Below are positions 1,564 through 20,556 of a stretch of 21,505 nucleotides of DNA, piece after piece. The number at the start of each line of letters is the position of its first letter. Position 1 is the first letter of the stretch. The stretch covers positions 1 through 21,505 of the IMG/VR virus record IMGVR_UViG_3300042397_001535, one strand, 5' to 3'. The position numbers and the translations under genes are program-made. The notes beneath the pieces were generated by a model. The model ran no database searches. It saw nothing but the letters and a program-made list of their open reading frames with translations, and had not been told where the DNA came from. This DNA comes from a virus.

Positions 1564-1566
1564 GCC

Positions 1567-2258: not shown

Positions 2259-2722
2259 TGACGCTTGCAGAGGCACGGGCGAGCGAAGACGTGCAGAAGA
2301 TCGAGCGGCTCGAAGGAGCGATGCTCGACCTTCCGCAGGTCGATTGCCCCGTTGAGCACTTCTTTGCGCCTGGGATTTACATTCGACAAATGGTCATCCC
2401 AGCGGGCGCGCTTGTCGTTGGTCACGAGCACAAGACCGAGCACGTCAACATCATGTTGAAGGGCCGCGTGACCATCGCAACGGCGGAAGGCGTCGCAACG
2501 CTCGTCGCGCCGATGACGTTCATCGCCCCGCCTGGGCGGAAGGTGGCCATCGCGCACGAGGAAACCGTCTGGCAGAACGTGCACGCCACCGAAGAGCGCG
2601 ACCTCGCGAAGATTGAGGATGCGTTCATCCGCAAAAGCGAAACGTGGCAAGCACACAACGAGGCGGCTGCGCTAGTAGATAAGCTGCGAGAGCACGCGCT
2701 CTCTGATAGGGGTGTTCCATGA
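2258..2722 (+). CDS. Cupin-fold protein in the virion gene cluster
   Basis: 154 residues from the ATG at 2258 (TGATG overlap with the upstream stop; an in-frame TTG one codon earlier is less likely). Cupin motif 1 is visible as GHEHKTEHVNIMLKG, giving metal-ligand candidates H56, H58, E61 and H62. Motif 2 follows as APPGRKVAIAHEETVWQNVH with H100. All usual ligands are present, so it may bind a metal. A polar helical tail fills residues 112-154. Similar cupin genes lie beside ejection-protein genes in other podoviruses; whether they are enzymes, chaperones or virion parts is not known to me. The stop overlaps the next start (ATGA). Confidence 0.75.
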   Translation: MTLAEARASEDVQKIERLEGAMLDLPQVDCPVEHFFAPGIYIRQMVIPAGALVVGHEHKTEHVNIMLKGRVTIATAEGVATLVAPMTFIAPPGRKVAIAHEETVWQNVHATEERDLAKIEDAFIRKSETWQAHNEAAALVDKLREHALSDRGVP

Positions 2723-3381
2723 CTTGGGTTGCAACAGCGGTCATCGGCGGGTCGGTTATCTCCGGGGTTGGCGGCTACATGGCGCAGAAGAGCGCCGCCG
2801 AGGAAGCGTCGGGCGCGCAGCGCGAGGCGTCGCAGGCTGCGATCGCCGAACAGCGTCGCCAGCAGGCCGAGATGGAGCGTCTCCTTGCACCCTACATGCA
2901 AGCGGGGCAAGGCGCGCTCACCGCGCAGCAGAACTTGCTCGGCCTCGGCGGACCCGAGGCGCAGCAAGCGGCGATCGCGCAGCTTGAATCGTCGCCACAG
3001 TTTCAGGCGATGGTGCAGCAGGGCGAAGAAGCCATCTTGCAGAATGCAAGCGCGACGGGCGGACTTCGCGGCGGCAACACGCAGGCGGCGCTTGCGCAGT
3101 TCCGCCCCGCGATGCTCTCGCAGCTGATTCAGCAGCAGATGGGCCAGCTCGGCGGTCTCGCGGGCATGGGAGCGCAAAGCGCGCTCGGCGCAGCAGGCTA
3201 CGGTCAGCAGGGCACGCAGGGCGTCATGGGCCAACTTGGCGCTATGGGGCAAGCGCAGGCCGGTGCGGCGATGTCGCAGGGTCAGGGCATGTCGAATCTC
3301 TTCGGCGGCGTCGGCGGCGCACTCGGCACGCTTGGCGGGCTCGGGGCAATGGGTAAGGGGCCGTTCGCCCCGAAGGCGTGA
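2719..3381 (+). CDS. DNA ejection (internal virion) protein, P22 gp7-like
   Basis: 220 residues starting at the ATG of an ATGA overlap. An N-terminal hydrophobic Gly-rich segment (residues 5-20, AVIGGSVISGVGG) is followed by a long Gln/Ala/Glu helix (25-110). Then comes ATGGLRGGNTQAALAQFRP at about residues 112-130, a stretch I recognise from gp7-type DNA transfer proteins. The C-terminus (142-213) is Gly/Met/Ala-rich and could insert in a membrane. In P22, gp7, gp20 and gp16 leave the virion with the DNA and help it cross the cell envelope. Here the three cognate genes are adjacent and in the same order. The assignment rests on motif plus position. Confidence 0.75.
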   Translation: MTWVATAVIGGSVISGVGGYMAQKSAAEEASGAQREASQAAIAEQRRQQAEMERLLAPYMQAGQGALTAQQNLLGLGGPEAQQAAIAQLESSPQFQAMVQQGEEAILQNASATGGLRGGNTQAALAQFRPAMLSQLIQQQMGQLGGLAGMGAQSALGAAGYGQQGTQGVMGQLGAMGQAQAGAAMSQGQGMSNLFGGVGGALGTLGGLGAMGKGPFAPKA

Positions 3382-3392
3382 ACGAGGGAACC

Positions 3393-4685
3393 ATGACGCA
3401 GCCGTTCAACTATACGCTAAACGTACCGAATCCAGCCGAGGCCGTAACCGGTGGACTTCAGCAGGGCATTCAGCTCGCGGGCATGATGGAGCGTGCTGAC
3501 GCAATGGCGGCGCAGCGTCGCCAGACGGAGTTGGAGAACCAGGCGCTTCAAGCGAAGGCGCGACGTGCACAAGAGTTCCAGGGAGAACTCGGCAGGCTAG
3601 GCGCGGAGGGCTTCAGCGCGCGTGGGCTCAACGAGCTAATGATCAAGTACCCCGAAGCGGCCGAGCAGCTTAAGACGCCGTTCGCGAACCTCAGCACGCA
3701 AGAGCGCGAAACGAAGGTTGCCGAAATTCAACCGATCGTCGCGGCGCTCAACGCGGGAGACCGCATCACGGCTGGCGACCTTCTCGAACGTCAAGCCGAG
3801 GCTCTCCGCAACGCGGGCAAGACGCGCGAGGCCGAAGCGGCAGACGTGCAGAAGAACATGGCCCTCTTCGGCGACCTCAACGCAGCGCAGACGAGCCTGA
3901 ACACGGCGGTCGCGATGGCGATGGGTCCGGAGAAGTACAACGAGACCTTCGTCAAACTCGAAGACCAACGCCGCGAACGGATGCTTGAAGATTCGACGAA
4001 TCTGAAGGCGTACGCTGATGCAAAGATCGCAGAGGCGAAGGCGAGGTTCGCCGATCTTCGCGAACAACTCGAAGTCGACAAGCTGAAGCCGAAGCCGATG
4101 GGTGCCGGTGGACCAGCGAAGCCAGCGCTCTCGCTGAAGGATCAGATCGGCGTCGAGGGCAAGCTGCGCGACGATTTTACTCGCGATTACAAGCCCATCT
4201 CAGACCAGCGTTATTCTTACGATCGCCTCACCTCGGCCGAGGAGACTCCCGAGGGAGATATTGCCCTCATTTACAATTACATGAAAATGCTTGACCCTGG
4301 AACAGGCGTCAAAGAAGGCGAATTCGCGACGGCGCAAAATGCGGCTAGCATCGACGTGAGAATTCGCAACGAGTACAACCGACTCAAGAGCGGCGAGCGG
4401 CTGGACCCAACGCAGCGCACGAATTATCGCTCACAGGCAAAATCTATCTGGGACAAGTACAAGAAGCAGGGCGATCGGCTCCGCACGCAGTACACAACCG
4501 AAGCGAAGCGTCTTAACCTCGAACCGTCGGCCATCTTCCTTTCTGCGCCCGAAGAGGAGCAGCCGCAGCAGGCAGCAGCGCAAGCAGGCCCGCAAGTCTC
4601 GAAGGCCCCGCCGCAGGTTTCGCAGGCGCAGCCGATGACGAGCGGCGGCGGCTGGAGCATCGTCAGCGTATCGAAGGGTAAGTGA
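3393..4685 (+). CDS. DNA ejection (internal virion) protein, P22 gp20-like
   Basis: 430 residues from the ATG at 3393, preferred because GAGGGA stands just upstream (3384-3389); a GTG at 3378 that overlaps the previous stop as GTGA would add five residues. The N-terminus (FNYTLNVPNPAEAVTGGLQQG) and the long Ala/Glu/Gln/Arg helical region to about residue 240 are typical of ejection proteins. Around residue 290 the segment IALIYNYMKMLDPGTGVKEG, then EFATAQNAAS, recurs in podoviral internal virion proteins. P22 gp20 is about 470 residues. The C-terminus is Gln/Pro-rich and low in complexity. It lies between gp7-like and gp16-like genes. No enzyme motif is seen. Confidence 0.7.
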   Translation: MTQPFNYTLNVPNPAEAVTGGLQQGIQLAGMMERADAMAAQRRQTELENQALQAKARRAQEFQGELGRLGAEGFSARGLNELMIKYPEAAEQLKTPFANLSTQERETKVAEIQPIVAALNAGDRITAGDLLERQAEALRNAGKTREAEAADVQKNMALFGDLNAAQTSLNTAVAMAMGPEKYNETFVKLEDQRRERMLEDSTNLKAYADAKIAEAKARFADLREQLEVDKLKPKPMGAGGPAKPALSLKDQIGVEGKLRDDFTRDYKPISDQRYSYDRLTSAEETPEGDIALIYNYMKMLDPGTGVKEGEFATAQNAASIDVRIRNEYNRLKSGERLDPTQRTNYRSQAKSIWDKYKKQGDRLRTQYTTEAKRLNLEPSAIFLSAPEEEQPQQAAAQAGPQVSKAPPQVSQAQPMTSGGGWSIVSVSKGK

Positions 4686-7243
4686 TGGCACGCTACACGG
4701 TACAAGCTCCGGACGGATCGACGATTGAACTTGAAGGCCCCGAGGGCGCTTCTCAGGATCAGGTCATTGCGCAGGCGCAGAAGCTCTACGCGCAGCGTCA
4801 AGCTGCGCCCGCCGAGCAGCCGCAAGGCCGACGCATCGCCTCGTTTCAGCGAGGGCCATCGCCGGAAGACTTGGCCGCAGCGCGTGCGGCGAAGGCGCAG
4901 CCAGCCGCCCAGCCAGCGCAGCCACAAGCCGCGCCGCAGGAAGAGCCTGGACTCATCGCGCAGCTGAAGGAAGCCTTTACGGGCGCTGCGCGCACGACGC
5001 CAGAGATTGAGCAGCTTCCCGACATCGGCGCGATGCCGGAGCGCAACCAGTTCAGCGGGCCTGGCTTCAAGGCTGCGCTCGGGCAGATTGCGGCATCTGG
5101 TCCGCAAGAGGTCGCGCAGGTCATCGGCGAGAACTTTCCAGGCGTGATGGCGCGCGTCGACGCGAAGGGAAACTACATCCTTCGGTCAGCGATCAACGGC
5201 CAGGAATACGCCATCAAGCCAGGACTCCAGGCGAGCGACGTCGCGCCCGCGATCGGCAAGCTGCTCCCGCAGATTGCAGCGTCGGAGATCGTTGCGCCTG
5301 CTGCCGCCGCTATGGGGCTCGGGAAGGCTGCGCAGCTTGCGACCGCACTCGTCACCGCTGGCGGCGTTCAAACGTCGGTGGAGGGCGTCTCTGCGCTGAC
5401 TGGTGGCCAGTTCGAGCCTGGTGAAGTCGCCAAGGCCGTCGCGGGCGAAGCGCTCGGGCAAGGCGTCGGCGCGGCGCTCAAGGGCGCAGGCTCGCTCGTC
5501 ACCCGTGGAGCTCGTGCGGTCAAGCAAGCGGTGAAGCCTTCCGCAGCGCAGGCGGCGGTCGCTGGCGTCGAGCAGGCCGTCGAAGCTGCCGCGCCCGCCG
5601 CTGCTGGTGCCGCTGGTACTGCTGCGGCTCCCGCGCAGCAGTTCCTTGAACCTGCCGAGCTTGCCAGCATGGTGCGCAAGGCATCGCGCGGCGGCATTGG
5701 GTCGGCTGAAGCTAAGCAACAACTCGTCGACCTAGCGCGCGTGAACCCGCAGGCGAAGGCCGACGCGGAGGCGCTCGGGATTGATCTTCCGATCGACGTC
5801 TTCGCCGATAATCCACAGCTCCGCGCGGCGGCTGGCCTCGTGCGCTCGCAAGCTGGCGGTGCAGAGGAGGCGGCGTATCGCGAGACGATCAAGAACGCGG
5901 CGACGCGCGCCGACGACCTCATGCGCGAGTTCGGTGCGACGTTCGTCGAAGGCAAGCCCGCGCCCGCGGAGGTTTCCGATCGCGTGCTCGCATCGCTTAC
6001 CGAGCAGTCGAAGGAGCTCGCCGCTCAGGCGAAGCCGCTCTTCGACCAGTTTGACGCGGCGGTCGGCAAGGAGACGAAGATCACGCTCCCTGACCTTGCC
6101 GCCGAGCTTGAATCGGTGACGAAGACGGTCCTCCCGAGCCAGCTCACGAAGGCGGAAAAGGGACTCCTCGCGCTCGTTCGCAAGAACGACAAGGGCGAGC
6201 TTGTCGAGATTCCCTACAACGCGCTCATGCGCGAGAAGCGCGCCATCTTCGATCAGGTCGAGAAGCGCATCGGGAACAAGTACAAGGACGTCGATCAGGT
6301 TCAGCTCGAACGCTACTACGACATCCTGCGCAAAGAGCAGCTCGCCGTCGCGGAGCGACTTGGCGACACCGAAGCGGCTTCCGCGATCGCCGATGCGAAC
6401 GTGCTCTGGGCGAAGAAGAAGGCGCTCGACAACCGAGTCGTCGAGGGCTTTGGAACGGCGGCAGACAACAGCGTTGCGAAGCTGATGAAGTCGGCGCTCA
6501 AGGGCGCAGCCGAGGGCGACCGCAAGGCGTTCAATCAGCTCAGCGACATCGTGAGCAGCGTCCCGCCGGAACTTCGTCGCGAGACGTTCGCGACGGCGCT
6601 TGCCAACTCGGCGCGCAGCGGAGCGAAGATCGCAGGCATGGACCCGAACGCCTTCGGCTTCACCGAGTACGCGAAGCTTTATCAGGGCTTGCGCGGGAAT
6701 CCGAAGGTCTACAAGGAGATCGTTAATTCGCTTGGCACTGGCGCAGACGAGACCCTCCGCCGACTCTACGAGGTTTCAAAGCGCGTTACCGATGCGCGCG
6801 CAAACGTGCTTGGCACAGGGAAAGCAAATCAGGCTTACATCGACCAGCTCAACGTCGAAGGCGCGCTTGCGAAGTTCGCAGACGTTGCCCTTCGTGGCGG
6901 CGTTGGAAAGATGGCCACGACGGCGCTTGGCGCAGGCGTAGGAGGCCCCGTCGGTGCTGCCGCCGCTGCTGGCCTCATCAACGCGGCGGGGCTTCGCAAG
7001 AGCGGCGTGAAGGCAGCGTCCGACCTCTTCGCAAGCGAGGAGTTCAAGCGACTCCTTTCCGAAGCTGCGGTGCGACCTGCATCCGACCGCAACATCCGCT
7101 CGCTCGCGGTGTCTCCGGTCTTCGCCAAGTTCGCAAACGCCGTCGGCCTTCCGCGTGCTATCGAAGACCGCGACCGCTGGATTCGCGATGCGCTTGCGAC
7201 GCAGGCGACGCAGCAGCCGACCGAGGAGCAACCGACCCCATGA
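4685..7243 (+). CDS. Large DNA ejection (internal virion) protein, P22 gp16-like
   Basis: 852 residues from the ATG at 4685, which shares a base with the upstream stop (TGATG). The N-terminus (YTVQAPDGSTIELEGPEGAS, then an AQKLYAQ helix) is a short module seen at the start of many large phage internal proteins. Next come a Pro/Ala/Gln-rich linker, an Ala/Gly-rich hydrophobic region at about residues 190-275, and a helical body. A second hydrophobic Gly/Ala stretch lies near 737-775, which could help membrane passage. I see no lytic transglycosylase or peptidase motif. It is longer than P22 gp16 (about 610). As the third ejection protein of the set it probably completes the DNA channel across the envelope. 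The stop overlaps the tailspike start (ATGA). Confidence 0.7.
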   Translation: MARYTVQAPDGSTIELEGPEGASQDQVIAQAQKLYAQRQAAPAEQPQGRRIASFQRGPSPEDLAAARAAKAQPAAQPAQPQAAPQEEPGLIAQLKEAFTGAARTTPEIEQLPDIGAMPERNQFSGPGFKAALGQIAASGPQEVAQVIGENFPGVMARVDAKGNYILRSAINGQEYAIKPGLQASDVAPAIGKLLPQIAASEIVAPAAAAMGLGKAAQLATALVTAGGVQTSVEGVSALTGGQFEPGEVAKAVAGEALGQGVGAALKGAGSLVTRGARAVKQAVKPSAAQAAVAGVEQAVEAAAPAAAGAAGTAAAPAQQFLEPAELASMVRKASRGGIGSAEAKQQLVDLARVNPQAKADAEALGIDLPIDVFADNPQLRAAAGLVRSQAGGAEEAAYRETIKNAATRADDLMREFGATFVEGKPAPAEVSDRVLASLTEQSKELAAQAKPLFDQFDAAVGKETKITLPDLAAELESVTKTVLPSQLTKAEKGLLALVRKNDKGELVEIPYNALMREKRAIFDQVEKRIGNKYKDVDQVQLERYYDILRKEQLAVAERLGDTEAASAIADANVLWAKKKALDNRVVEGFGTAADNSVAKLMKSALKGAAEGDRKAFNQLSDIVSSVPPELRRETFATALANSARSGAKIAGMDPNAFGFTEYAKLYQGLRGNPKVYKEIVNSLGTGADETLRRLYEVSKRVTDARANVLGTGKANQAYIDQLNVEGALAKFADVALRGGVGKMATTALGAGVGGPVGAAAAAGLINAAGLRKSGVKAASDLFASEEFKRLLSEAAVRPASDRNIRSLAVSPVFAKFANAVGLPRAIEDRDRWIRDALATQATQQPTEEQPTP

Positions 7244-9066
7244 GCGCCTTTTCTGTCTCCGAGCCCTTTCCGACGTTTCACGACCGCGACGGCCAGCCGC
7301 TCGACGCAGGGTTTCTCTACTTCGGCGCGGCTGGCTTCCCTGCGCAGTCGAACCCCATCCCGGTCTACGTCGACGCGGCGCTGACGATCCCAGCGGCGCA
7401 GCCCGTGCGCACGCTCAACGGCTTCCCTCAGTACCAGGGCGCGGCGTGCCGGCTCTACGTCGACGCCGACGACTTCTCGATCGCGGTCAACCAATCAGAC
7501 AACACGCTCGTCTTCTCGTCCCTCAACTCGACGGTGCGCATCCCGCTCGCGTCGACGACGGGCAGCATCAGCGCTGACCGTGTAAACTACACCGAAGGCG
7601 GCATCGGCTCGACGACGCGCACGCTCACGAGCAAGCTGAAAGAGTCGGTGTCCGTCTTCGACTTCATGACGGCGGCGCAGATCGCCGACGTGCAAGCAGG
7701 CACGCTGCTCATCGACGTGACCGCGCCCATCAACGCGGCGATTGCGGCGGCGGATGACGTGTTCTTTCCCGAGGGCGCGTACCGCGTCTCGAACGACGGA
7801 ACGACGGCGAACGGGGCGATTCAGATCCCCAACGTCCTAGCAGCGAAGACGCTTCGCGGCGCTGGTCGCGGCAACACGGTGATCCGAAACTACGGGCAAG
7901 GCCCCTGCATCACGTCGATCGGCAACCTGCTTTTCTTCAACGTGTCGCTGCACGTCTGCGACCTGACGATTCAGGGCGAAGTCGGCTCCGGCGACGGCAT
8001 CTTCTGCGACTACACGTCGCAGAGCATCTTCGAGCGCGTCGAGCTACTTAGCTGCGGCACGAACGGCATCAAGCTCCAGCGCGGCGCGCACAACGCGCTG
8101 AACGACGTATGGGCGCGCGTCTGCGGCCTCGACGGCGTGCTCGTCGGTCAGGAGGCTTTCTTCACGACCATCGTCGGCGGCACCTTCGAGTCGAACGGGC
8201 GGCACGGGCTCAACTTCGCGGCCGATGGTGGCGCGGCCCCGAGCGGCGTGACCGCGACCGGCGCTTCGTTCCGCTCGAACGCGGTGCACAACGTCAACGT
8301 CCTCGACGGCGCTGGAGACGTTCGCCTCTTCGGATGCACCTTCACGACTACGACGTCGACCACGACTGCGCGGCACCTTAGTTTCGACGGCGGCGTGGGC
8401 ACGTCGACCGCGTGCCTTGCCTACGGCTGCACGTTCGTCGGTCAAAACTCCGCATCGTCTGTCGTCGGCATCTACGGCAACGCCTGCGAAGACCTCAGCC
8501 TCGACGGCTGCTCGATCGACTGCACGGGCTCGACGGCGTACTCGTTCACCGCGTCGGCGCTGATCACCCGCATCGTCAACTGCTCGAAGCTGTTTGGCGC
8601 AAAGGTCGACGCGAGCGCGGGAACGACGCAGATCTTGCCCGATGGCGGTTCTGTCTTCCTCAGTCGTTCGGCGTCGTACGTCGGCCCTACGACGATGAGC
8701 TTCGGCGGTGGGTACTCGACGTTTACCGTCGGCGGCAGCGTCAACGCCTTTCGCTTCCGCCTGCTCGGCGCTGGCGTCAACGAAGTCTTCGAGCTTGGCG
8801 GCTGGCGTCTCTGGGTCGACTCGTCGACGGGCAATCTCCGCATCAAGGGCACCGACCCGACGAGCGCAGCCGATGGCTTCTCGGTCGGTCCCGGCGTGCC
8901 GTCGTCGACGTTTGCAAACCTTCCCGCTGGCCCTCCCATCGGCACGATGGCGCGCTGCACTAACCTATCGGCAGCGCCTACCTTTGGTGCCGTTGCCGCA
9001 GGCGGCGGCGTCTTCTCTGGCTTCGTCATTTGGAACGGAGCCAACTGGACCGTCTTCGGCGTCTGA
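7240..9066 (+). CDS. Tailspike: P22-type head-binding domain plus right-handed beta-helix
   Basis: 608 residues beginning at the ATG of an ATGA overlap. Residues 1 to about 95 match the P22 tailspike N-terminal head-binding domain pattern: PFPTFHDRDGQPLDAGFLYF, NPIPVYVDAALTIPAAQPVR, TLNGFP. Residues 130-190 hold the usual entry into a pectate-lyase-like fold (SVFDFMTAAQIADV, then VFFPEGAYRVS). From about 195 to 450 there are repeating short beta-strand turns (GAGRGNTVI, LTIQGEVGSGDGIF, GTNGIKLQRGAHN, DGVLVGQEAFFTTIVGG) typical of parallel beta-helices. The C-terminal 120 residues are a separate beta domain. The protein would bind and probably cleave a surface polysaccharide; the active-site acids cannot be identified by eye. 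It attaches to the hub encoded at the left edge. Confidence 0.85.
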   Translation: MSAFSVSEPFPTFHDRDGQPLDAGFLYFGAAGFPAQSNPIPVYVDAALTIPAAQPVRTLNGFPQYQGAACRLYVDADDFSIAVNQSDNTLVFSSLNSTVRIPLASTTGSISADRVNYTEGGIGSTTRTLTSKLKESVSVFDFMTAAQIADVQAGTLLIDVTAPINAAIAAADDVFFPEGAYRVSNDGTTANGAIQIPNVLAAKTLRGAGRGNTVIRNYGQGPCITSIGNLLFFNVSLHVCDLTIQGEVGSGDGIFCDYTSQSIFERVELLSCGTNGIKLQRGAHNALNDVWARVCGLDGVLVGQEAFFTTIVGGTFESNGRHGLNFAADGGAAPSGVTATGASFRSNAVHNVNVLDGAGDVRLFGCTFTTTTSTTTARHLSFDGGVGTSTACLAYGCTFVGQNSASSVVGIYGNACEDLSLDGCSIDCTGSTAYSFTASALITRIVNCSKLFGAKVDASAGTTQILPDGGSVFLSRSASYVGPTTMSFGGGYSTFTVGGSVNAFRFRLLGAGVNEVFELGGWRLWVDSSTGNLRIKGTDPTSAADGFSVGPGVPSSTFANLPAGPPIGTMARCTNLSAAPTFGAVAAGGGVFSGFVIWNGANWTVFGV

Positions 9067-9080
9067 CGTAAGGGGTTGAT

Positions 9081-9335
9081 ATGGACAGCATCCGCATCGG
9101 CGAACTGATCGGGCTCCTCGCTCTCGGCGGCTCTATCGTCGGCGTTTACGTCGGCACACGCACCGAGGCCGCGAAGCTCGCGAGTGCGTTTAACGCGATG
9201 GCCGAAGCGATGAAGCAGATCCGCGACGATATTCACGAGATGCGCAAGGAGCTTCGCTCCGACCTGCAAGCGCACTCGAAGCAACTCGGCGACCTCTCGC
9301 AGCGCGTCGCCGTCGTCGAGACGAAGGTGCAGTGA
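9081..9335 (+). CDS. Membrane-anchored coiled-coil protein, lysis region (possible inner-membrane spanin or holin-like)
   Basis: 84 residues. The ATG at 9081 has AAGGGG seven bases upstream. One hydrophobic segment (about residues 7-25, IGELIGLLALGGSIVGVYVG) is followed by a charged heptad-like helix (DDIHEMRKELRSDLQAHSKQ, LSQRVAVVETKVQ). A single N-terminal membrane helix plus coiled coil suits an inner-membrane spanin, but also XhlA-type lysis accessory proteins. It is the first gene after the tailspike, and the endolysin follows about 1.2 kb later, so a part in lysis is likely from context. The stop overlaps the next ATG (TGATG). Confidence 0.6.
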   Translation: MDSIRIGELIGLLALGGSIVGVYVGTRTEAAKLASAFNAMAEAMKQIRDDIHEMRKELRSDLQAHSKQLGDLSQRVAVVETKVQ

Positions 9336-9547
9336 TGGAAGCCCTTGCGCTGAAGGTCGCCGTCTGGTGGCCCGTCGTTTCCGGCGTGCTGAATGTGCTC
9401 CTTCGCACGCGGACGCCGGAACAGTGGGTCGAGCGATGCGAGCGCACGCCACGCTTTGCAGCGTTCACTCGCTTCATGCGCTCGGTCGGCGTCGACCCCG
9501 TGAAGATGGTTCAAGCTCTCGGCGAGATGACGGAAGGAGGCAAGTGA
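9335..9547 (+). CDS. Small hydrophobic phage protein of unknown function, lysis region
   Basis: 70 residues from the ATG at 9335 (TGATG with the previous stop). Residues 3-22 (ALALKVAVWWPVVSGVLNVL) are hydrophobic enough for one membrane segment. The rest is an amphipathic basic region: RTPEQWVERCERTPRFAAF, then RSVGVDPVKMVQAL. I know similar short proteins with the pattern WWPVxSGxxNVLLRxRTPExW from other phages, always unnamed. It could be a holin-like or anchoring component because it sits between a coiled-coil membrane protein and a lipoprotein, but nothing in the sequence proves this. It ends in TGATG with the next gene. Confidence 0.55.
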   Translation: MEALALKVAVWWPVVSGVLNVLLRTRTPEQWVERCERTPRFAAFTRFMRSVGVDPVKMVQALGEMTEGGK

Positions 9548-9780
9548 TGCAGACGTTCGTGAAGTTCTTCGCTCTGCTCGTGGTCCCGAGCGCGATCGCC
9601 GGTTGCGGCTCTCCGTGCGCCCGCGTCGCATCAGACGCGATCACGCTCGACGGGGACTGCGCAAAGGCCGCGCTCGACAAAGGAGACGGTCAGCTTGCTG
9701 CGGCGTGCGCGACCGCTTACGGCCTGGTGAAGCGCGGCCTCCTCACTGGCTCGTGCGCGAACGACGTAGGTGCGCGATGA
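9547..9780 (+). CDS. Small Cys-rich lipoprotein (possible outer-membrane spanin or superinfection-exclusion protein)
   Basis: 77 residues. The ATG at 9547 lies in a TGATG overlap with the gene before. Residues 1-19 form a signal peptide (MQTFVKFFALLVVPSAIAG) followed by Cys20, giving a lipobox I-A-G-C. The residue after the Cys is Gly, not Asp, which favours sorting to the outer membrane. The mature part of about 58 residues holds four more cysteines (C24, C38, C54, C70), enough for two disulfides. Its place two genes after a membrane coiled-coil protein and upstream of the endolysin suits an o-spanin. However, it lacks the Pro-richness of Rz1, so a superinfection-exclusion lipoprotein is the main alternative. 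The lipoprotein call is firm, the function is not. The stop overlaps the next ATG (ATGA). Confidence 0.65.
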   Translation: MQTFVKFFALLVVPSAIAGCGSPCARVASDAITLDGDCAKAALDKGDGQLAAACATAYGLVKRGLLTGSCANDVGAR

Positions 9781-10073
9781 GCACGGCTTCGAACGTGCTG
9801 ACGTGGCTCGACACGGTGATCACCGTCGTCGCGAAGGTCGAGGACGCCATCGGTCAGCTTCCTCGCTTCGACGATGGGAAGCTGCTCATGCCCGAGAGCC
9901 AGGCGGCGGTCGTCGCGGCGCGGCTGCTCGATCCTGCTGAGATTGCCAACATGCTCCTGCGCGCAGCGTGCGACGCTGACCCGGAGCTTGAATCGGCCAT
10001 CAGCATCGCGGCGCTGAACTCGCAGGGCCTCGACCGTCGACGGCTCGAAGCGGCGTTGCGCAGGCTGACGTAG
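9777..10073 (+). CDS. Hypothetical phage protein
   Basis: 98 residues from the ATG at 9777, overlapping the lipoprotein stop (ATGA); upstream in-frame codons lie inside that gene. The protein is predicted mostly helical: an N-terminal amphipathic helix (VLTWLDTVITVVAKVEDAIG), a middle LMPESQAAVVAARLLDPAEI segment, and a C-terminal Ala/Leu/Arg helix (LDRRRLEAALRRL). No membrane segment, Cys motif or catalytic signature is visible. I do not recognise the family. It is part of the lysis/accessory block between the lipoprotein and the basic DUF5872-like gene. Confidence 0.5.
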   Translation: MSTASNVLTWLDTVITVVAKVEDAIGQLPRFDDGKLLMPESQAAVVAARLLDPAEIANMLLRAACDADPELESAISIAALNSQGLDRRRLEAALRRLT

Positions 10074-10082
10074 GAGCAAACC

Positions 10083-10496
10083 GTGACGACGTACACCAAG
10101 CCCGCGCTGCGCGAGCGCATCAAGGATCGCGTGATGGCAGGCGGCAAGGGCGGCAAGCCTGGCCAGTGGAGCGCGCGCAAGGCGCAGATCGTCGCGCAGG
10201 AGTACAAGGAAGCGGGCGGTGGCTACGAGGGCGCGAAAACAGGCGCGCAGAAGTCGCTCTCGACGTGGACGCGCGAAGACTGGGGCACGAAGAGCGGCAA
10301 GCCGTCGACGCAAGGCGCGAAGGCGACCGGCGAACGCTATCTGCCTAAGGCCGCGCGTGAAGCGCTCTCGCCTGCGGAGTACGCCGCAACGACGCGCGCA
10401 AAGCGCGAAGCGACGAAGCGCGGCGAGCAGTTTGCGAAGCAGCCGAAGAAGATCGCCGCGAAGACGGCGGCGCATCGCAGCCGGAGCAAGACGTGA
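10083..10496 (+). CDS. Very basic DUF5872-like protein
   Basis: 137 residues with a GTG start at 10083, chosen because AGGAG stands six bases upstream (10072-10076). The run PALRERIKDRVMAGGKGGKP, then GQWSARKAQIVAQEYKEAGG, then SLSTWTREDWGTKSGKPSTQ and KATGERYLPKAAREAL is what I remember of the DUF5872 family, found in phages, algae and large DNA viruses with no known function. Lys and Arg are frequent throughout, and the tail (KKIAAKTAAHRSRSKT) resembles a nucleic-acid-binding extension. It sits late in the plus-strand operon directly before the endolysin. DNA binding or packaging with the genome is an inference. The stop overlaps the next GTG (GTGA). Confidence 0.65.
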   Translation: MTTYTKPALRERIKDRVMAGGKGGKPGQWSARKAQIVAQEYKEAGGGYEGAKTGAQKSLSTWTREDWGTKSGKPSTQGAKATGERYLPKAAREALSPAEYAATTRAKREATKRGEQFAKQPKKIAAKTAAHRSRSKT

Positions 10497-11347
10497 CCGC
10501 GCGCGAGCTACCTGCTAGGGCGACGCCGGTGCACGCCGCCGAAGTCTACCTAGCCCTGCGCCTTCAGCTTGCCGCGCAGCTCGGGGCACCGCCGCCGCGT
10601 GAAGCCGTCGCCATCATGCTTGGGCAGATGGCCCTGGAGACGGGGCGTTTCAAGAGCGTGATGAACTACAACCTCGGCGGCATCAAGTGTTCGAAGAGTT
10701 GGCCTGGATGCTGGCAGCACTTTGCCACGACGGAGCGCCTGCCGATGCGCACCGCGCAGAAGTACCTCGACGAGGTGCCGCAAGACTCGACCGTCGAGCT
10801 CGTCGAGCGCTCCGGCGACTTGTGGACGTTGCGCTTCAAGGGCAAGCATCCTGTCAATCGCTTCGTCGCCTTCGAGAGCCTCGACGCTGCGATTGAGCAC
10901 CACGTCGCCTTCCTCCTCGGCCGCTACCGTTCCGCCGTCGAGGTGGCCGTCACGACGCGCGACGCTGAAGCCTACGTCACCGAGTGCCATCGGCTCGGGT
11001 ATTTCACGGGCGACCCGGACGCCTACCGCGCATCCGTGCGCAGCCTCGCTCGTGAGTACACGCGCACCATGCCCGCCGATCCCGCGCCAGTGACGCCCAT
11101 GCCGCCCACTGAGCCCGTTGTCAGCGTCGCGGCGAGTGTGCCTGCTCCCGAGCCCGAAAGCCCCGCCATGGCCCCGTCAGCGCCCAGGGATGAGGCTCCG
11201 CGTCCGGTGGGCGAAGCGCCACCCGTGGCCACGCTTCCGCAGATCGGCATCGGCCTCACGAAAGACGAAGAGCCGCGTCCCTGGTGGGTGCGGCTCCTCG
11301 TGTGGCTCGTCGGTGCGATGACGGGGAAGTTCGGCGCGCGTCGCTAG
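10493..11347 (+). CDS. Endolysin with N-terminal glucosaminidase (GH73/FlgJ-like) domain
   Basis: 284 residues from a GTG that overlaps the preceding stop (GTGA). Residues about 15-190 show the endo-N-acetylglucosaminidase pattern: REAVAIMLGQMALETGRFKS with E49 as the likely catalytic acid, then NYNLGGIKCSKSWPGCW. Later come FVAFESLDAAIEHHVAFLLG and LGYFTGDPDAYRASVRSLAR. The enzyme would cut the glycan strands of the cell wall at lysis. Residues about 195-250 are Pro/Ala-rich and look like a linker. The last 20 residues contain a hydrophobic segment (WWVRLLVWLVGAM), which may tether the protein to the membrane; there is no N-terminal signal peptide. It is the last plus-strand late gene, and its stop shares CTAG with the opposing gene. 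Confidence 0.8.
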   Translation: MTARELPARATPVHAAEVYLALRLQLAAQLGAPPPREAVAIMLGQMALETGRFKSVMNYNLGGIKCSKSWPGCWQHFATTERLPMRTAQKYLDEVPQDSTVELVERSGDLWTLRFKGKHPVNRFVAFESLDAAIEHHVAFLLGRYRSAVEVAVTTRDAEAYVTECHRLGYFTGDPDAYRASVRSLAREYTRTMPADPAPVTPMPPTEPVVSVAASVPAPEPESPAMAPSAPRDEAPRPVGEAPPVATLPQIGIGLTKDEEPRPWWVRLLVWLVGAMTGKFGARR

Positions 11348-11532
11348 CCGTCGACCATGAGCGCTAGCCCAGCGGTGACGGCCAGCGTCGCCGCGAGCAC
11401 GTCGAGCAAGAACGCCCGAATCATCCCCTTGCGGGGCTCGGGAAGCTCGAAGCGCAGGGCGTAGACGGGCGGTCTCATGCCGCGCAGTTGCGTTTGCGTC
11501 GTTTGCGGTCGGAGTGCGTAGCGTGCCTTCAT
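11344..11532 (-). CDS. Small membrane protein, end of early operon
   Basis: 62 residues from the ATG complementary to 11530-11532; the in-frame ATG at 11478 is an alternative and neither has a strong ribosome site. The only clear feature is a C-terminal hydrophobic helix (MIRAFLLDVLAATLAVTAGL), with a basic stretch before it. I do not recognise it. It is the last gene of the minus-strand operon and runs four bases into the stop codon of the endolysin gene on the other strand. Because the coding evidence is only length, packing and the helix, it could be spurious. Confidence 0.4.
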   Translation of the reverse strand: MKARYALRPQTTQTQLRGMRPPVYALRFELPEPRKGMIRAFLLDVLAATLAVTAGLALMVDG

Positions 11533-11536
11533 GCGA

Positions 11537-11797
11537 CTACTTTCGCGCGCTCGCGTCGGCGGGTAAAGTTTTCGGCAGCTTTCCGCGCAGGGCCTCGGCG
11601 AACGCAAGGTCGATGACCTGCGTGTGTTGGTAGTCCGGGGAGACCAACTTCGCGCACTCGTGCCCGAAGGAGTGGATGGCCCAGCCGGTCAGCTCGACGA
11701 GCGGGGCAAGCTCGCGCCGCCAGCTCTCGCAGTAGGCCGACGCGCTCGCGTGAACGCGCCCGTCTGGGCCTCGTCGTCGGATGCTTGGAAGGCTCAT
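11537..11797 (-). CDS. Hypothetical phage protein
   Basis: 86 residues. The ATG at 11795-11797 has a very good ribosome site (GAGGAGG about seven bases upstream) and overlaps the previous stop (ATGA), so the start is secure. The N-terminus is basic (RRRGPDGRVHASASAYCESW), followed by RRELAPLVELTGWAIHSFGH and CAKLVSPDYQHTQVIDLAFA. Two Cys (23 and 48) and nearby His residues do not form a standard zinc motif. I do not recognise the family. It belongs to the series of small genes at the distal end of the early operon. Confidence 0.55.
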   Translation of the reverse strand: MSLPSIRRRGPDGRVHASASAYCESWRRELAPLVELTGWAIHSFGHECAKLVSPDYQHTQVIDLAFAEALRGKLPKTLPADASARK

Positions 11798-11997
11798 GGC
11801 GTCGCCTCCTCGCGCTGCGTGCAGCGGTCGCAGACGACGAGCCCGAAGCGCCCGGTCGCCCGGTACGTCCACCCGGTAGGCCAGTCGACGGCGCGCCTTC
11901 GTCGATGCTTCACCGCTTCGACCTCGCGCGTCGGCACGTTGCGCACGACGCCGCACGCGCCGCACTTCCACTCTGCAAAACTTCCCATCGGTTCCAT
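11794..11997 (-). CDS. Small zinc-ribbon-like protein
   Basis: 67 residues. The ATG at 11995-11997 is preceded by GAAGGAAGG with about nine bases spacing; a second ATG three codons on is possible. Two CxxC knuckles, C12/C15 (KCGACG) and C56/C59 (VVCDRCT), frame a basic middle part with RRRR, the usual layout of a single zinc ribbon. Nothing else identifies it. Such proteins often bind nucleic acid or act as small adaptors, which is only an inference here. The stop overlaps the following start (ATGA). Confidence 0.55.
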   Translation of the reverse strand: MEPMGSFAEWKCGACGVVRNVPTREVEAVKHRRRRAVDWPTGWTYRATGRFGLVVCDRCTQREEATP

Positions 11998-11998
11998 T

Positions 11999-12634
11999 CT
12001 ACACGCCTTCCTTCGTTACTTTTCGAACAAGCAGTCTCTCCCACTTCTTGAAGCCGCCGCGCCGACCGAACTCGGCGAGATGCTCCTCGAACGGGTGATT
12101 CGACGAGATGTCATCCGGCCTTCGCGCAGTGATCCTGTCGCCGACGTAGACGAGCGCGCAGGGCGTCGAAGGGAGCCGAATCACGTCGCCGACTACGCGC
12201 AGCGGCGGCAGGTTGTGCAGCGGCTTCCAGGGGCCGCAGGCGAGCGAGGTGATCGCCACGTCAACCTTCCAGAGGTCGTGCGAGCTGAGCCCGTCGAGGT
12301 CCGGCACCCGAGCGACGATGCAGGGCGTCGCAGCGGCGTTCGCTCCACCGCAGCGCGTCGCCTCGATCGAGCAGGCGAGGCCTGACTGCGAATCGATCTC
12401 AACTTCGATGTCACCGTCGACGCTTAGCGTCCACCGCATCTTGTTCGTCGCGTAGGTGATGGTTCCAGCGGCGCGGTCGAACGTAGGTAGGCTTCGCCCG
12501 ACCTGCGCGTACTCACTCGCCGTCGTCCAGTTCCACTCGACGCCGTGCGTCTTCGGGATTCTAATCGCCCACCCTTGTCGGTAGCCCCTCGCGAGGCGAA
12601 TCGCCATGCGGGCGATCGTGTCATGGTCAGTCAT
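11999..12634 (-). CDS. Hypothetical phage protein
   Basis: 211 residues from the ATG at 12632-12634, which follows GAAGAGGG at suitable distance; upstream codons in the same frame overlap the neighbouring zinc-ribbon gene. The first half contains short beta-like stretches (TITYATNKMRWTLSVDGDIE, VEIDSQSGLACSIEATRCGG). The second half has DVAITSLACGPWKPLHNLPP and LVYVGDRITARRPDD. Five cysteines are scattered without knuckle spacing. The C-terminal end is basic. I do not recognise a family, and no membrane segment or enzyme signature is visible. It is the longest of the unexplained genes at the end of the operon. Confidence 0.55.
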   Translation of the reverse strand: MTDHDTIARMAIRLARGYRQGWAIRIPKTHGVEWNWTTASEYAQVGRSLPTFDRAAGTITYATNKMRWTLSVDGDIEVEIDSQSGLACSIEATRCGGANAAATPCIVARVPDLDGLSSHDLWKVDVAITSLACGPWKPLHNLPPLRVVGDVIRLPSTPCALVYVGDRITARRPDDISSNHPFEEHLAEFGRRGGFKKWERLLVRKVTKEGV

Positions 12635-13055
12635 GTCGTCGCCCTCTTCGCGCGGCTGTTGCGCGCTCTCCAAATTTCGCCTGCGCCTCCCTGAGCGCGC
12701 AGCCGCATGAGATTGTGTCACCGGATCGAAGTTGCCAGGCATCGCGGAGGACGGCAGGCGAGCCGCAGTCGCACTCGCACACCCAGCGGCTCAGGCCGTC
12801 GAGCTGCTTCGCGGAGCGGTCGACTACGACGAGACGACCGAAGCGATGCCCCCACAGGTCGAAGCGTCGCACGCACCCGCACGAGCGCGTCTGCTTCGTG
12901 CGTAGGTGCGTCGCGCGAACGGTGACGCGCTCGCCGCACTCGCACACGCACGCCCACCAGGTGTTGCCCTTGCGGTCGCTTGCAGGGCGTGGCGCTGGCT
13001 CGCAGACGGTGAGCAGGCCGAAGCGCTGCCCGGTCAGGTCTAGTCGCGCGGGCAT
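12627..13055 (-). CDS. Protein with two tandem DLTGQRFG/SCGC zinc-ribbon repeats
   Basis: 142 residues. The ATG at 13053-13055 has a strong site (GGGAGGT seven bases upstream). Two copies of the same module are visible. Copy one runs from DLTGQRFGLLTV through CVCECGERVTV to TKQTRSCGC (about residues 5-62). Copy two runs from DLWGHRFGRLVVV through CECDCGSPAVL to GDTISCGC (about residues 65-122). This module (DLTGxRFGxLTV, CxCG, SCGC) is common in phages, alone or attached to AP2 or HNH domains, and is thought to bind DNA through a zinc ribbon. Here there is no HNH or AP2 part. The C-terminus is basic. Start and ribosome site lie inside the coding end of the preceding gene (16-base overlap). 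Confidence 0.65.
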   Translation of the reverse strand: MPARLDLTGQRFGLLTVCEPAPRPASDRKGNTWWACVCECGERVTVRATHLRTKQTRSCGCVRRFDLWGHRFGRLVVVDRSAKQLDGLSRWVCECDCGSPAVLRDAWQLRSGDTISCGCALREAQAKFGERATAARRGRRHD

Positions 13056-13402
13056 TTGCCGCACCTCCCTCGGATGCGCCCGAAGCGCAGATGCGTGTCG
13101 GAGATGGTCGACGCCTCGCCGCAGCGCACGCAGCGCACGTCCCACGTTGAATAGCGTTGCTTCGGTCCCTCGTGGTACGCAACCGCCTCGAACCCGAGGC
13201 CGTCGAGCTGAGACGAGAGGCGCCTCGCCTGCGATGCGCGGAAGACGCAGCCGCACGATTTCATGCCGCTTTGCAGGTGAGAGAGCGTGCGCTTGCGCAA
13301 CTCAGTGCCGCAGTCGCACCGCAGGATGACGGGGCGAACGCTGATGCAGACGAGGTGGTGGTGTCGGTGGCCCACTTCGAGGGGCGGAAGGCGCACTCGC
13401 AT
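13040..13402 (-). CDS. Protein with two zinc-ribbon-like modules
   Basis: 120 residues from the ATG at 13400-13402, which overlaps the previous stop (TGATG); the longer frame upstream runs antisense to nothing useful and through two other genes, so it was trimmed. Module one is LRCDCGTELRKRTLSHLQSG followed by MKSCGC (about residues 28-53), the same CxCG...SCGC pattern as in the next gene. Module two is VRCVRCGEASTISDTHLRFG followed by RIRGRCGKC, a CxxC pair of knuckles with the same L-x-x-G spacing. Together with its neighbour this makes four related metal-binding modules in tandem. Function unknown; nucleic-acid binding is the likely guess. Confidence 0.6.
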   Translation of the reverse strand: MRVRLPPLEVGHRHHHLVCISVRPVILRCDCGTELRKRTLSHLQSGMKSCGCVFRASQARRLSSQLDGLGFEAVAYHEGPKQRYSTWDVRCVRCGEASTISDTHLRFGRIRGRCGKCPRD

Positions 13403-14718: not shown

Positions 14719-14897
14719 CAGAGGGCCTCGGTCGCGGCGTTGTAGCGCGCCATCTGACGCAGCACGCGCTTGCGGTCGTCGGCGTGCATCGCGGCCAGCT
14801 CGCGATCGGAGACGCGCACGGTGCGCGTCCAGCACTGGTTGTAGACCGACCAGAAGGTGATGCTGCCGTCGCGGTGAAGAGTAACCTTGTCCGTCGT
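14718..14897 (-). CDS. Paralogue of the 58-aa early protein, without a standard start codon
   Basis: The minus frame ending with TGA at 14718-14720 is open up to the TGA at 14997-14999 but contains no ATG, GTG or TTG ahead of the conserved part. It encodes DKVTLHRDGSITFWSVYNQC, WTRTVRVSDRELAAM, then DDRKRVLRQM, closely matching the protein encoded at 19815-19991 (KLHKDGSVTHWSTYSQMW, DLAAM, RTRVMRHL). AGAAAGG upstream would position translation at ACG codons 14895-14897 or 14892-14894; a CTG at 14910-14912 is the other choice. The stop is coupled to the next gene (TGATG), and conservation extends to the end, so it seems functional or only recently broken. The coordinate of the start is a guess; a sequencing error in an ATG is also possible. 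Confidence 0.55.
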   Translation of the reverse strand, partial: TTDKVTLHRDGSITFWSVYNQCWTRTVRVSDRELAAMHADDRKRVLRQMARYNAATEAL

Positions 14898-18737: not shown

Positions 18738-19139
18738 TCAGTCTTTCTTGCTGGGAGCGGTGATGGAAAACGACGGGCGACCCGGCGTCGTGGTGATGGC
18801 GCCGAGGAGCGGCGCGGTGATCGTTGGTGCGGCGGCTTTCCAGGCTGCGGCGTTGATGTCCGCCGACCAGCGAAAGAGGCTTCCGAGGTGCTCGGAGAGG
18901 CCGTGCTCGGCTGCGAGTTCTTGCAGCTTGTCGGCGTCGACCTTGCGGTTCATGCGACCGACGACCTTGATGGCGTAGCCCTGCTCGGTCTTCGCGTTGG
19001 TCGTGCCCTCTTTGCCCTCGTCGAGGGCGAGGAGCTCAACGAGGCGGTCTTCGATGGTGCGGCGATGCGCCACCGCGTTCGCCTCTTCGGCCTTGGCGAT
19101 GCACCATTGATGCGCGAGGTCGTCGAGTTCGCGACTCAT
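18738..19139 (-). CDS. Conserved phage protein, DUF7173-like
   Basis: 133 residues from the ATG at 19137-19139, overlapping the upstream stop (ATGA) with GCGGGG before it. The N-terminus (ELDDLAHQWCIAKAEEANAV, then RRTIEDRLVELLAL) is helical. It is followed by EGTTNAKTEQGYAIKVVGRM, then NRKVDADKLQELAAEHGL, the pattern I recall for a small phage family found between ATPase and ssDNA-binding genes (DUF7173). The C-terminal 45 residues are Ala/Pro/Thr-rich. Function is unknown; context suggests a partner in recombination. The family name is from memory and less sure than the gene itself. Confidence 0.6.
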   Translation of the reverse strand: MSRELDDLAHQWCIAKAEEANAVAHRRTIEDRLVELLALDEGKEGTTNAKTEQGYAIKVVGRMNRKVDADKLQELAAEHGLSEHLGSLFRWSADINAAAWKAAAPTITAPLLGAITTTPGRPSFSITAPSKKD

Positions 19140-19813
19140 GGCGTCCCCGCAATCTTGCGGATGACCGCGCCGAGGTCCGGCGCTTCCCAGGCGTCGAGGC
19201 GACCGCTGCGGTCCTTCGCCGTCCAGAGGCCGTCCGGGTGCGCCATGAGCGCGCGCTGCGGAACGCCGTCGGCGTCCTTCTCGACTCGGAGTGCGAGCAC
19301 CTCGTCGAAGAAGTAGGGCAGCTGTTGCCCGGTCTTGTTGCCGGGCATCGACGGCGCGTAGAACACCTTGCCCATCTCGTCCGTCGACTTCTCCAGCTTC
19401 GCGGACATGTAAACATGGCGGCCGGGCAGGTCGCGGAAGGCGCGGATGAGGTCCGTCATCTGCTCCTGCATCGCGCCGTACGCCTGCCTGGGGTCTTTGG
19501 CGATCTTCTTTTCGTAGTTGAGGACGACCTCGGCGATCTCGCTGATGGAGTCGACGGCGACCGACTCGAAGCCGCGGGCCTCGTCGGAGCCTGCGAGCCA
19601 CTCGTACGCCTCGCGCAGCGTCGCCATGCTCGACACCTCGACGTACGGCAGGTCCTCGCCGACGAGGCTCAGGAGGCCCGCCTCCGCACTGATGATGATG
19701 GGGTTTGGAAGCGTGCGGATCAGGCTCGTCTTGCCTGCGCCGGCAGCGCCGAAGACGAGGAGCTTCACGCCGTTGGCGTGCGCTTCGCGGGTGCGTTTGA
19801 TGCTGATGGCCAT
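19136..19813 (-). CDS. Sak4/AAA_24-like P-loop ATPase, candidate recombinase or annealing protein
   Basis: 225 residues from the ATG at 19811-19813 with GAGGAGA at good spacing. Walker A is FGAAGAGKTSL (G22-T29); a Walker B-type strand is ESVAVDSISEIAEVV with D88. EAGLLSL, then SSMATLREAYEWLAG, HVYMSAKLEKS and PYFFDEVLALRVE follow, as in the phage nucleotide-binding (AAA_24) family that includes Sak4, a minimal RecA-like protein that anneals single strands together with a phage SSB. Here the ssDNA-binding gene is two genes downstream and a 5'/3' resection nuclease follows, the usual Sak4 setting. ATP binding is secure; annealing activity is inferred from family and context. Confidence 0.75.
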   Translation of the reverse strand: MAISIKRTREAHANGVKLLVFGAAGAGKTSLIRTLPNPIIISAEAGLLSLVGEDLPYVEVSSMATLREAYEWLAGSDEARGFESVAVDSISEIAEVVLNYEKKIAKDPRQAYGAMQEQMTDLIRAFRDLPGRHVYMSAKLEKSTDEMGKVFYAPSMPGNKTGQQLPYFFDEVLALRVEKDADGVPQRALMAHPDGLWTAKDRSGRLDAWEAPDLGAVIRKIAGTP

Positions 19814-19814
19814 C

Positions 19815-19991
19815 TCAGCTCTCCTCGGCGAAGCGGTTCGCGTGCTTCTGGAGGTGCCGCATGACGCGCGTGCGCTCCTCGGGCTGCATCGCGGCGAGGT
19901 CGGCGTTCGAGATGCCGTGCGCACGCCTCCACATTTGGGAGTAGGTCGACCAGTGGGTGACGCTCCCGTCTTTGTGCAACTTTGCCTTCAT
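19815..19991 (-). CDS. Small conserved early phage protein (58 aa)
   Basis: 58 residues. The ATG at 19989-19991 has AAGGA six to seven bases upstream, and the stop lies one base before the next gene's start region. The protein reads KAKLHKDGSVTHWSTYSQMW, RRAHGISNADLAAM, then EERTRVMRHLQKHANRF. I recall short phage proteins with the H-x-D-G-x-x-T-x-W-S-x-Y-x-Q-x-W pattern, none characterised. A close relative without a normal start codon is encoded at 14718-14897 in the same operon. The beta-turn start plus helical end suggests a compact fold; function unknown. Confidence 0.65.
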   Translation of the reverse strand: MKAKLHKDGSVTHWSTYSQMWRRAHGISNADLAAMQPEERTRVMRHLQKHANRFAEES

Positions 19992-20044: not shown

Positions 20045-20063
20045 GCGGGGCATCGAGCCCCGC
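20045..20063. other. Perfect 7-bp GC hairpin in an operon gap
   Basis: GCGGGGC (20045-20051) and GCCCCGC (20057-20063) are exact inverted repeats around a five-base loop, in the 108-base gap (19992-20099) between the first and second gene of the minus operon. Neither strand has a long T-run after it (ATTT on the plus side), so a partial terminator, attenuator or processing stem is possible. Nothing else is seen in this gap. Confidence 0.4.
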
Positions 20064-20099: not shown

Positions 20100-20390
20100 T
20101 CACGCGCAGAGGCGCCACGTCGTGTGCTGGCGCCCGCTCGCGGTCTCGTCCTCGTAGCGGATCATCGCGTAGCCGGCCGCAGCCCAAGCGGCGAGTTCGG
20201 ACTGCCGGTCGCCGGGGTAGACCATGTTGTCGCGGTCCTCGCGGGACACCTCGACGCGCAGCGCCTCGCCGGACACCTCGATTTCGTGGACGTTCGCGCC
20301 ATACTCGGCCGCGATGCGGCGATCGTCGGTGAGGCAAAGGCCGGCGTGCATAACGAGGGTGGCGTTGTTCGTGCCGTGGAAGAGAATCAT
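20100..20390 (-). CDS. Small possible ADP-ribosyltransferase-fold protein, first gene of the early operon
   Basis: 96 residues from the ATG at 20388-20390, chosen because GAGGA lies eight bases upstream; the ATG at 20403-20405 would add five residues but has a poor site. The start ILFHGTNNATLVMHAGLCLT, then DDRRIAAEYGANVHEIEVSG and LRVEV, follows the order of ADP-ribosyltransferase cores of the H-Y-E kind: an initial HGT, a T/S-x-D...A-x-x-Y helix, then a strand. Candidates for the catalytic acid are in RQSELAAW or YEDETASG. It ends QHTTWRLCA. At this length it is a minimal version at best. Phages use such enzymes to modify host proteins early in infection, and its leading position in the early operon fits; activity is unproven. 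Confidence 0.5.
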   Translation of the reverse strand: MILFHGTNNATLVMHAGLCLTDDRRIAAEYGANVHEIEVSGEALRVEVSREDRDNMVYPGDRQSELAAWAAAGYAMIRYEDETASGRQHTTWRLCA

Positions 20391-20405
20391 CGTTTCGTTC
20401 CTCAT

Positions 20406-20556
20406 CGCCTCGGTCGGGTGATTCCGTTTGGGCGATGTGTTGTTTCTACGCGAGTGCGTTCCCGTTGTCGAAGACAATCGACATCGACGTGCGTTTTTTA
20501 TTTCTTGCGCTGTAGACTACGAACAGTGGTAGGATGCGCCGCAGGAGGCTCGAACC
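20406..20556. promoter_or_regulatory. Divergent control region between early operon and regulator gene
   Basis: About 150 non-coding bases separate the minus operon from the plus-strand HTH gene. An exact inverted repeat TTGTC-gaa-GACAA lies at 20465-20477, and a second short one, GTAG-a-CTAC, at 20512-20520; either could be an operator for the adjacent HTH protein. There is a T-rich tract at 20494-20506, unusual in this GC-rich window. TTGCGC (20505-20510) with TAGGAT (20530-20535) is a weak plus-strand promoter candidate with a long 19-base spacer. I found no convincing minus-strand promoter by eye. AGGAGG at 20543-20548 is the ribosome site of the HTH gene. Confidence 0.45.

Follow-up and report, generated by a model that had tools for sequence, protein, structure and literature searches.

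The 96-residue protein and its genomic surroundings

The window analysed here, 21,505 bases in length, is an IMG/VR virus record. Its minus strand encodes a 96-residue protein whose translation carries MILFHGTN, LTDDRRIAAEYG and VHEIEVSG, the stretches from which an earlier note had read a likeness to ADP-ribosyltransferases (ARTs). While the longest mechanically called ORF reaches upstream to a TTG at 20477, we place the start at the ATG at 20390, because all six distinct members of the family begin there, with MILFHGT as the N-terminus, and because the upstream ATG of contig L005 is out of frame. The ORF is a gene rather than a chance reading frame, since our IMG/VR scans found it on eight contigs (the window included; six distinct proteins) with pairwise dN/dS values of 0.10–0.76 (15 pairs; 0.21–0.64 for pairs with the window copy). 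The family is under purifying selection.

Table 1. Coordinates of the 96-residue protein's gene, its candidate catalytic codons and neighbouring features in the window
Feature	Coordinates	Strand	Support
96-residue AcrIF11-like/ART-like protein	20100..20390, stop included	(-)	translation; start conserved in 6/6 distinct sequences
His5-Gly6-Thr7 codons, HG[ST], putative first ART motif	20370..20378	(-)	6/6 invariant; H and G also in 15-row alignment with AcrIF11
Tyr30 codon, putative second ART motif; His in AcrIF11 rows	20301..20303	(-)	6/6 invariant
Asp81-Glu82 codons, opposite AcrIF11 D115/E116	20145..20150	(-)	6/6 invariant; 15/15 rows
Gln88-His89 codons, alternative third H-Y-[EDQ] position	20124..20129	(-)	6/6 invariant
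Leader, 42 nt, with short inverted repeat ATCGCC/GGCGAT	20396..20437	(-)	identical in L005 although protein 59% identical
orf58, next gene after the 96-residue protein's gene	19815..19991	(-)	carried by window phage; matched in neither L005 nor L006
Sak4-like ssDNA annealing ATPase	19136..19813	(-)	AAA_24 E 2.7e-28; phrog_124 E 9.5e-53
Divergent Cro/C1-type HTH regulator, 57 aa	20557..20730	(+)	HTH_3/HTH_26 below cut-off; phrog_18104 transcriptional regulator E 1.3e-14

On the minus strand the gene comes first in a run that continues with orf58, Sak4 (AAA_24), DUF7173, DUF669/SSB, a Cas4-type exonuclease and a helicase; upstream, and divergent from it, lie the Cro/C1-type HTH gene, orf56 and the primase gene. 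As judged by this content, the surroundings are those of a typical phage replication/recombination region, and it is from the gene content of the region that both ‘early’ and ‘operon’ derive. Described previously as the lead gene of an early operon, the gene does hold that position in the window and in contigs L002, L003 and L005, but in L004, L010 and L012 it lies downstream of the primase gene. We found no Aca-type gene beside it, and neither a sigma-70 promoter nor an intrinsic terminator nearby. The gap between the gene and orf58 contains a perfect 7-bp hairpin (20045–20063), retained in L005 and possibly an attenuator. A paralogue of orf58 (45%) is encoded at 14742–14888 on the minus strand, a second copy within the same phage.

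The gene varies between related phages

Relative to the window protein, the copies in L002 and L003 are identical, those in L004, L010, L011 and L012 are 73–75% identical, and the copy in L005 is 59% identical. The L005 divergence is local: identity to the window is 99% for Sak4 and 97% for primase, but only 59% and 66% for the 96-residue protein and the HTH regulator, and the 42-nt leader and the downstream hairpin of the window gene are both kept. The HTH gene of L005 (positions 2503–2667 of that contig, 66%) is far more divergent than its neighbours (97–99%); since the regulator, too, is divergent there, the two genes seem to change together. In L004, a DNA methyltransferase gene comes next after that of the 96-residue protein. 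In the complete relative MW202867 (L006) the gene is missing, as the interval from Sak4 to the HTH gene measures only 84 nt. These comparisons show an accessory, fast-changing gene; absence, relocation and divergence of this kind are what counter-defence cargo displays, without being peculiar to it.

Within the protein, conservation is uneven. In the N-terminal part H5, G6, T7, G17, T21, D23, A27, Y30, G31, V34, H35 and E36 are invariant in all six distinct sequences, and D52-D54, Y58-R62, W69, G73, Y79, D81, E82, Q88 and H89 are among the invariant positions of the rest. His5 and the Tyr of the AAEY stretch (Tyr30), both singled out beforehand as residues that ought not to vary, are thus kept in 6/6 sequences.

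Beyond the small phage group, tblastn against phages and plasmids detected no homologue, and sequence searches of PDB sequences and genome contigs likewise returned no homologue of the family. The family profile gave hits against 185 genomes that we judged to be chance, and a joint-alignment profile gave two weak hits against 398 genomes. A pattern scan of genome contigs yielded 84 stretches, none of them in an HGT-bearing frame; the pattern YPGD...E....A..G[YW] matched only the family and one unrelated frame; and six-frame motif patterns run on IMG/VR, which are the family's own motif, recovered mainly ART-PolyVal domains and the family itself.

Profile comparison with ART families

The family has no significant profile match in Pfam, PHROGs or NCBIfam. 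At E ≤ 10, none of the six members matched the Pfam ART-PolyVal profile (PF18760), and no Pfam match to KptA (PF01885) was found among them. One of the six, L005, gave a weak Pfam match to PARP (PF00644; residues 1–31, E 0.21), which is presumably in register with the HGT region of PARP. PARP was carried by none of the 200 genomes scanned for a profile set.

For profile–profile comparison, ART-PolyVal domains were picked with the Pfam model and expanded to viral loci, 68 of 80 being kept; those removed were duplicates or fragments, or had no HG close to their start. This unbiased set replaced that of an earlier comparison (probability 95) in which the rows had been selected by the family's own motif. 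Against the 68 domains, HHalign aligned the six-sequence family with a probability of 78.4 and a score of 32.5, which none of 150 column shuffles reached (maximum 19.5). With HGT removed the score was 24.7, again above all 150 shuffles (maximum 17.2). On its own, the C-terminal half showed no similarity to ART-PolyVal beyond that of shuffles, 86 of 150 of which scored as high. As controls, nine KptA sequences gave a probability of 12.2 (score 23.6), Arr 0.7 and RES 0.5.

Predicted structure

AlphaFold2 modelling from three family sequences reached a pLDDT of 41, and from a 30-row alignment a pLDDT of 73 with a pTM of 0.67. The 30 rows comprised six family members, four small or motif-selected ART-like sequences and 20 ART-PolyVal domains (19 of the 68 above plus one Pfam-picked domain, L206), with no AcrIF11 protein among them. 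Residues 1–40 and the last strands are well ordered in the 30-row model and residues 51–71 are not. Because ART sequences are part of its alignment, the model is no independent proof of an ART fold, and the structural comparisons have to be read in that light.

All 50 VIA-align matches listed for this model, built as it was from an ART-containing alignment, are ARTs or ART-fold toxins (as judged by titles and family knowledge), the toxins ParT and RES among them. The AcrIF11 structure 6KYF aligns to the same ART-informed model with Z 5.4 and 2.9 Å over 78 residues, at 24% identity, the highest among the matches listed; Z is at most 6.1 among the matches listed, which is middling. Foldseek returned no significant match for the model in the PDB. 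In BFVD the best E was 1.7e-3 and several PolyVal ARTs ranked high; of six BFVD matches at E ≤ 0.034, two bear the name PolyVal ADP-ribosyltransferase and the other four no functional name. For the ART fold proposed from sequence, the comparison, which lists ARTs and ART-fold toxins only, gives support, but by way of a model that ART sequences helped to shape.

Similarity to AcrIF11

Because the modelling alignment held no AcrIF11 rows, the likeness to AcrIF11 was then checked by sequence. AcrIF11 proteins were sampled with a degenerate pattern of an AcrIF11 motif, which gave 12 stretches, eight of them with AcrIF11-type proteins (one, L322, inside a giant ORF); further members came from tblastn searches of phages and plasmids. 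L313 is the protein of structure 6KYF (E 7.9e-88), and all four AcrIF11 rows tried passed the NCBIfam AcrIF11 cut-off. Against 13 AcrIF11 proteins, HHalign aligned residues 1–43 of the family with a probability of 92.2 (E 5.8e-7, score 42.6; none of 200 shuffles as high, maximum 24.3). Removal of HGT left a score of 27.8, still above all 200 shuffles (maximum 23.5), and the C-terminal half alone did no better than shuffles (27/200). AcrIF11 and ART-PolyVal aligned to each other with a probability of only 37.3 (score 28.6), which leaves those two farther from each other than either is from the family.

Profile–profile comparison places the 96-residue protein among the ARTs with AcrIF11 closest, with significant similarity limited to residues 1–43. 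The ART-like order of motifs reported earlier holds up well, the profiles of both families beating every shuffle even without HGT; the proposed kinship with KptA and PARP cores needs qualifying, as AcrIF11 and ART-PolyVal stand nearest to the family, KptA reaches a probability of 12 and PARP only its Pfam E of 0.21.

Over the C-terminal half the correspondence is looser. A joint alignment of the family with AcrIF11 (15 rows) has ten invariant columns, including H5, G6, W69, G73, D81, E82 and H89, a number reached by none of 200 full shuffles but by 15 of 200 in which the N-terminus was kept. The conserved Asp-Glu pair of AcrIF11 (D115/E116; D146/E147) is present as D81-E82 in 15/15 rows: with the N-terminus kept, a DE pair fell onto D115/E116 in 20 of 1000 shuffles, and together with a Gly eight residues earlier in 4 of 1000. 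As sequence alignments, the N-terminal correspondence with AcrIF11 is solid and the C-terminal one suggestive.

The family also has the HG[ST] of AcrIF11 and its second-motif Tyr/His. NCBIfam NF052490 (cut-off 50 bits) gave no match for the window protein (P0001), L005 or L010, and none at E ≤ 10 in six family-carrying records (controls: L313 1.8e-30, L311 1.4e-41). Among 15,128 ORFs, the AcrIF11 profile scored the ART-PolyVal protein L086 at E 8e-5 versus 0.02–0.44 for the family, and the family's own profile found no AcrIF11 protein among its 26 best outside hits. For these three reasons we call the protein AcrIF11-like rather than an established AcrIF11.

Candidate catalytic residues

The H-Y-[EDQ] clade of ARTs is defined in an excerpt of PMC9503650, and Gln88 would also fit that definition. 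The His of the first strand motif (H5) and the Tyr of the second (Y30) are both present in 6/6 sequences; for the third position, an E/D/Q in or ahead of the last strand, there are two invariant candidates, D81-E82 and Q88, in a structure that is itself uncertain. At the position matching Gln88-His89, ART-PolyVal has E in 24, Q in 8 and H in 5 of 61 sequences, and an excerpt of PMC5512222 describes the polyvalent-protein ARTs as H-Y-D. In AcrIF11, according to the excerpted text of Chen et al. 2025 (PMC12421852), conservation is highest in the loop that carries D115/E116 (Pae1) or D146/E147 (Pae2), and changing D146/E147, H20/Y46 or D115 abolishes activity. A lone Glu, as first suggested, is a less likely third catalytic residue than the invariant acidic pair Asp81-Glu82 (AcrIF11 D115/E116) or Gln88.

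Interpretation

Drawing on what is read off the sequences themselves – the gene, its invariant residues, its profile similarity and its accessory behaviour – we favour, at a probability of about 0.45, a minimal H-Y-[D/E/Q] ART that is closest to AcrIF11 and is carried as accessory cargo alongside the replication/recombination genes of the phage. AcrIF11 is an enzyme that phages use against bacterial CRISPR immunity, and its target is Cas8f (Csy1) of the type I-F CRISPR complex. The 96-residue protein would be made early in infection and bind NAD+ in a pocket of His5 and Tyr30; Asp81-Glu82 (or Gln88) would stabilise the transition state, and ADP-ribose would pass to a protein of the host, for which a component of an antiviral defence is the likeliest candidate. 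Fold, catalysis, early expression and defence target are what we infer here, and confidence in them differs: the ART fold is highly probable, enzymatic activity is reasonably likely given the conserved residues, a counter-defence role falls somewhat short of even odds, and a target shared with AcrIF11 is improbable. Doubtful too, if slightly less so, is the most specific version, a sub-100-residue enzymatic anti-CRISPR in which an AcrIF11-type ART is cut to its NAD-binding core and the helical, target-recognising region to ~30 residues.

The strongest competitor, which we consider possible but less probable than the AcrIF11-like reading, is a small, generic phage ART belonging to the ART-PolyVal/Tox-ART-HYD2 neighbourhood that modifies host housekeeping proteins for takeover, as T4 Alt and Mod ADP-ribosylate RNA polymerase, its AcrIF11 likeness being superfamily ancestry. 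It can draw on the HHalign probability of 78 against ART-PolyVal, on the BFVD matches with PolyVal names, on L086 outscoring the family with the AcrIF11 profile, and on Gln88, which aligns with the E/Q/H position of ART-PolyVal and suits the clade definition in the excerpted PMC9503650. Set against this, the AcrIF11 score is the higher one (42.6 vs 32.5), VH at 34–35 and the DE pair are common to AcrIF11 and the family, and the gene stands alone as a small accessory one instead of forming part of a giant virion protein. Less probable still is an ART-fold protein that has lost catalysis and serves only to bind a partner or NAD+/ADP-ribose: the small size, the mostly missing helical region, the weak overall profile scores and a catalytic glutamate that is only a candidate would suit it, but His5, Tyr30, Asp81, Glu82 and Gln88 are invariant while much else varies, which suggests that catalysis has been kept. 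A toxin paired with orf58 as antitoxin, suggested by the position of orf58 directly downstream in the window phage and by ParT and RES among the structural matches, we reject, since no orf58 match lies beside the gene in L005, L004, L010, L011 or L012 and a second orf58 copy sits elsewhere in the window. An unrelated small fold with HGT by chance would explain the missing library matches and the low model confidence without ART sequences, but is very improbable when 0/150 and 0/200 shuffles equal the scores against two ART families, with HGT removed as well.

Other ART-like proteins in phages and plasmids

Several further ART-like ORFs were observed. Contig L322 (positions 3–13391, plus strand) encodes a 4463-residue ORF with an AcrIF11-like domain, in which LFNGG replaces [FY]HG and whose ending is DDEHGTSW: an AcrIF11-type domain within a giant polyvalent-type protein. 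Small phage ORFs of 84–132 residues in L102 (10729–10980), L105 (11614–11943), L091, L083 and L096 share [LI][YF]HG[TS]...AT.D..EA..YG..VYEV... and look like another minimal ART-like family; L102, L105 and L096 were scanned and gave no Pfam match. Phage ORFs of 165–180 residues in L084, L108, L118 and L119 have YRG instead of HGT, followed by [LI]TDD..YA..YG..VEE, and are possibly an R-type relative (no Pfam match for L084 and L118, the two scanned). AcrIF11-type genes with no more than a hypothetical annotation (L323–L325, L327–L329) occur in phages of Yersinia, Erwinia and Moraxella and also on conjugative plasmids, where they adjoin parM or stbAB; L323 passes NCBIfam. The gene studied here, missed by the Pfam, PHROGs and NCBIfam profiles, shows how such genes stay unannotated.

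Comparison with known systems

The PARP catalytic domain (PF00644) shares the register of L005 residues 1–31, and tankyrases and PARPs are among the fold matches listed; it differs in that the match is not significant and concerns one of six members. With the RNA 2'-phosphotransferase KptA/Tpt1 (PF01885) the protein shares HGT in register with [HRQ]GT, but the HHalign probability is only 12 and the winged-helix half of KptA is absent. The ART domain of polyvalent phage proteins, ART-PolyVal (PF18760), has the same HGT, LT.D...A..Y, V.E/PV strand, G-Y-D-like hairpin and E/Q/H before the last strand; the 96-residue protein differs in being standalone, in lacking a QIKS tail and in its conserved DE pair, and the profile score is weaker than that with AcrIF11.

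AcrIF11 (NF052490; PDB 6KYF, 8DWQ) follows the same order – a [FY]HG[ST] start, G-L, A..[YH]G..[VL]H, G[YFW]..[VI]...DE and a final T-T-W-like strand – and is likewise a standalone phage gene with a conserved Asp-Glu pair. It differs in length (131–162 residues in full-length rows, the annotated start of L329 being truncated) and in having His where the 96-residue protein has Tyr; our protein has an additional loop separating DE from the last strand and falls below the NCBIfam cut-off, and the helical segment is about halved. A limited literature search turned up no AcrIF11 relative shorter than 100 residues, and enzymatic anti-CRISPRs are few. If the protein truly is a reduced AcrIF11, it would tell us what AcrIF11 can do without, or else that the core has been re-aimed at another defence protein; as a very small ART scaffold it would have uses as well. 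The helical region of AcrIF11 (~51–107 of Pae1) is, in the excerpted text of PMC12421852, the most variable part and the proposed source of target specificity, and the choice of target is stated there to be open (AcrIF11 is also reviewed in PMC13131331, likewise an excerpt). The 96-residue protein retains H5, Y30 and D81/E82 with only ~30 residues opposite that region, and such a natural variant, with the catalytic residues and without most of the variable helical region, would make the question of the AcrIF11 target directly testable.
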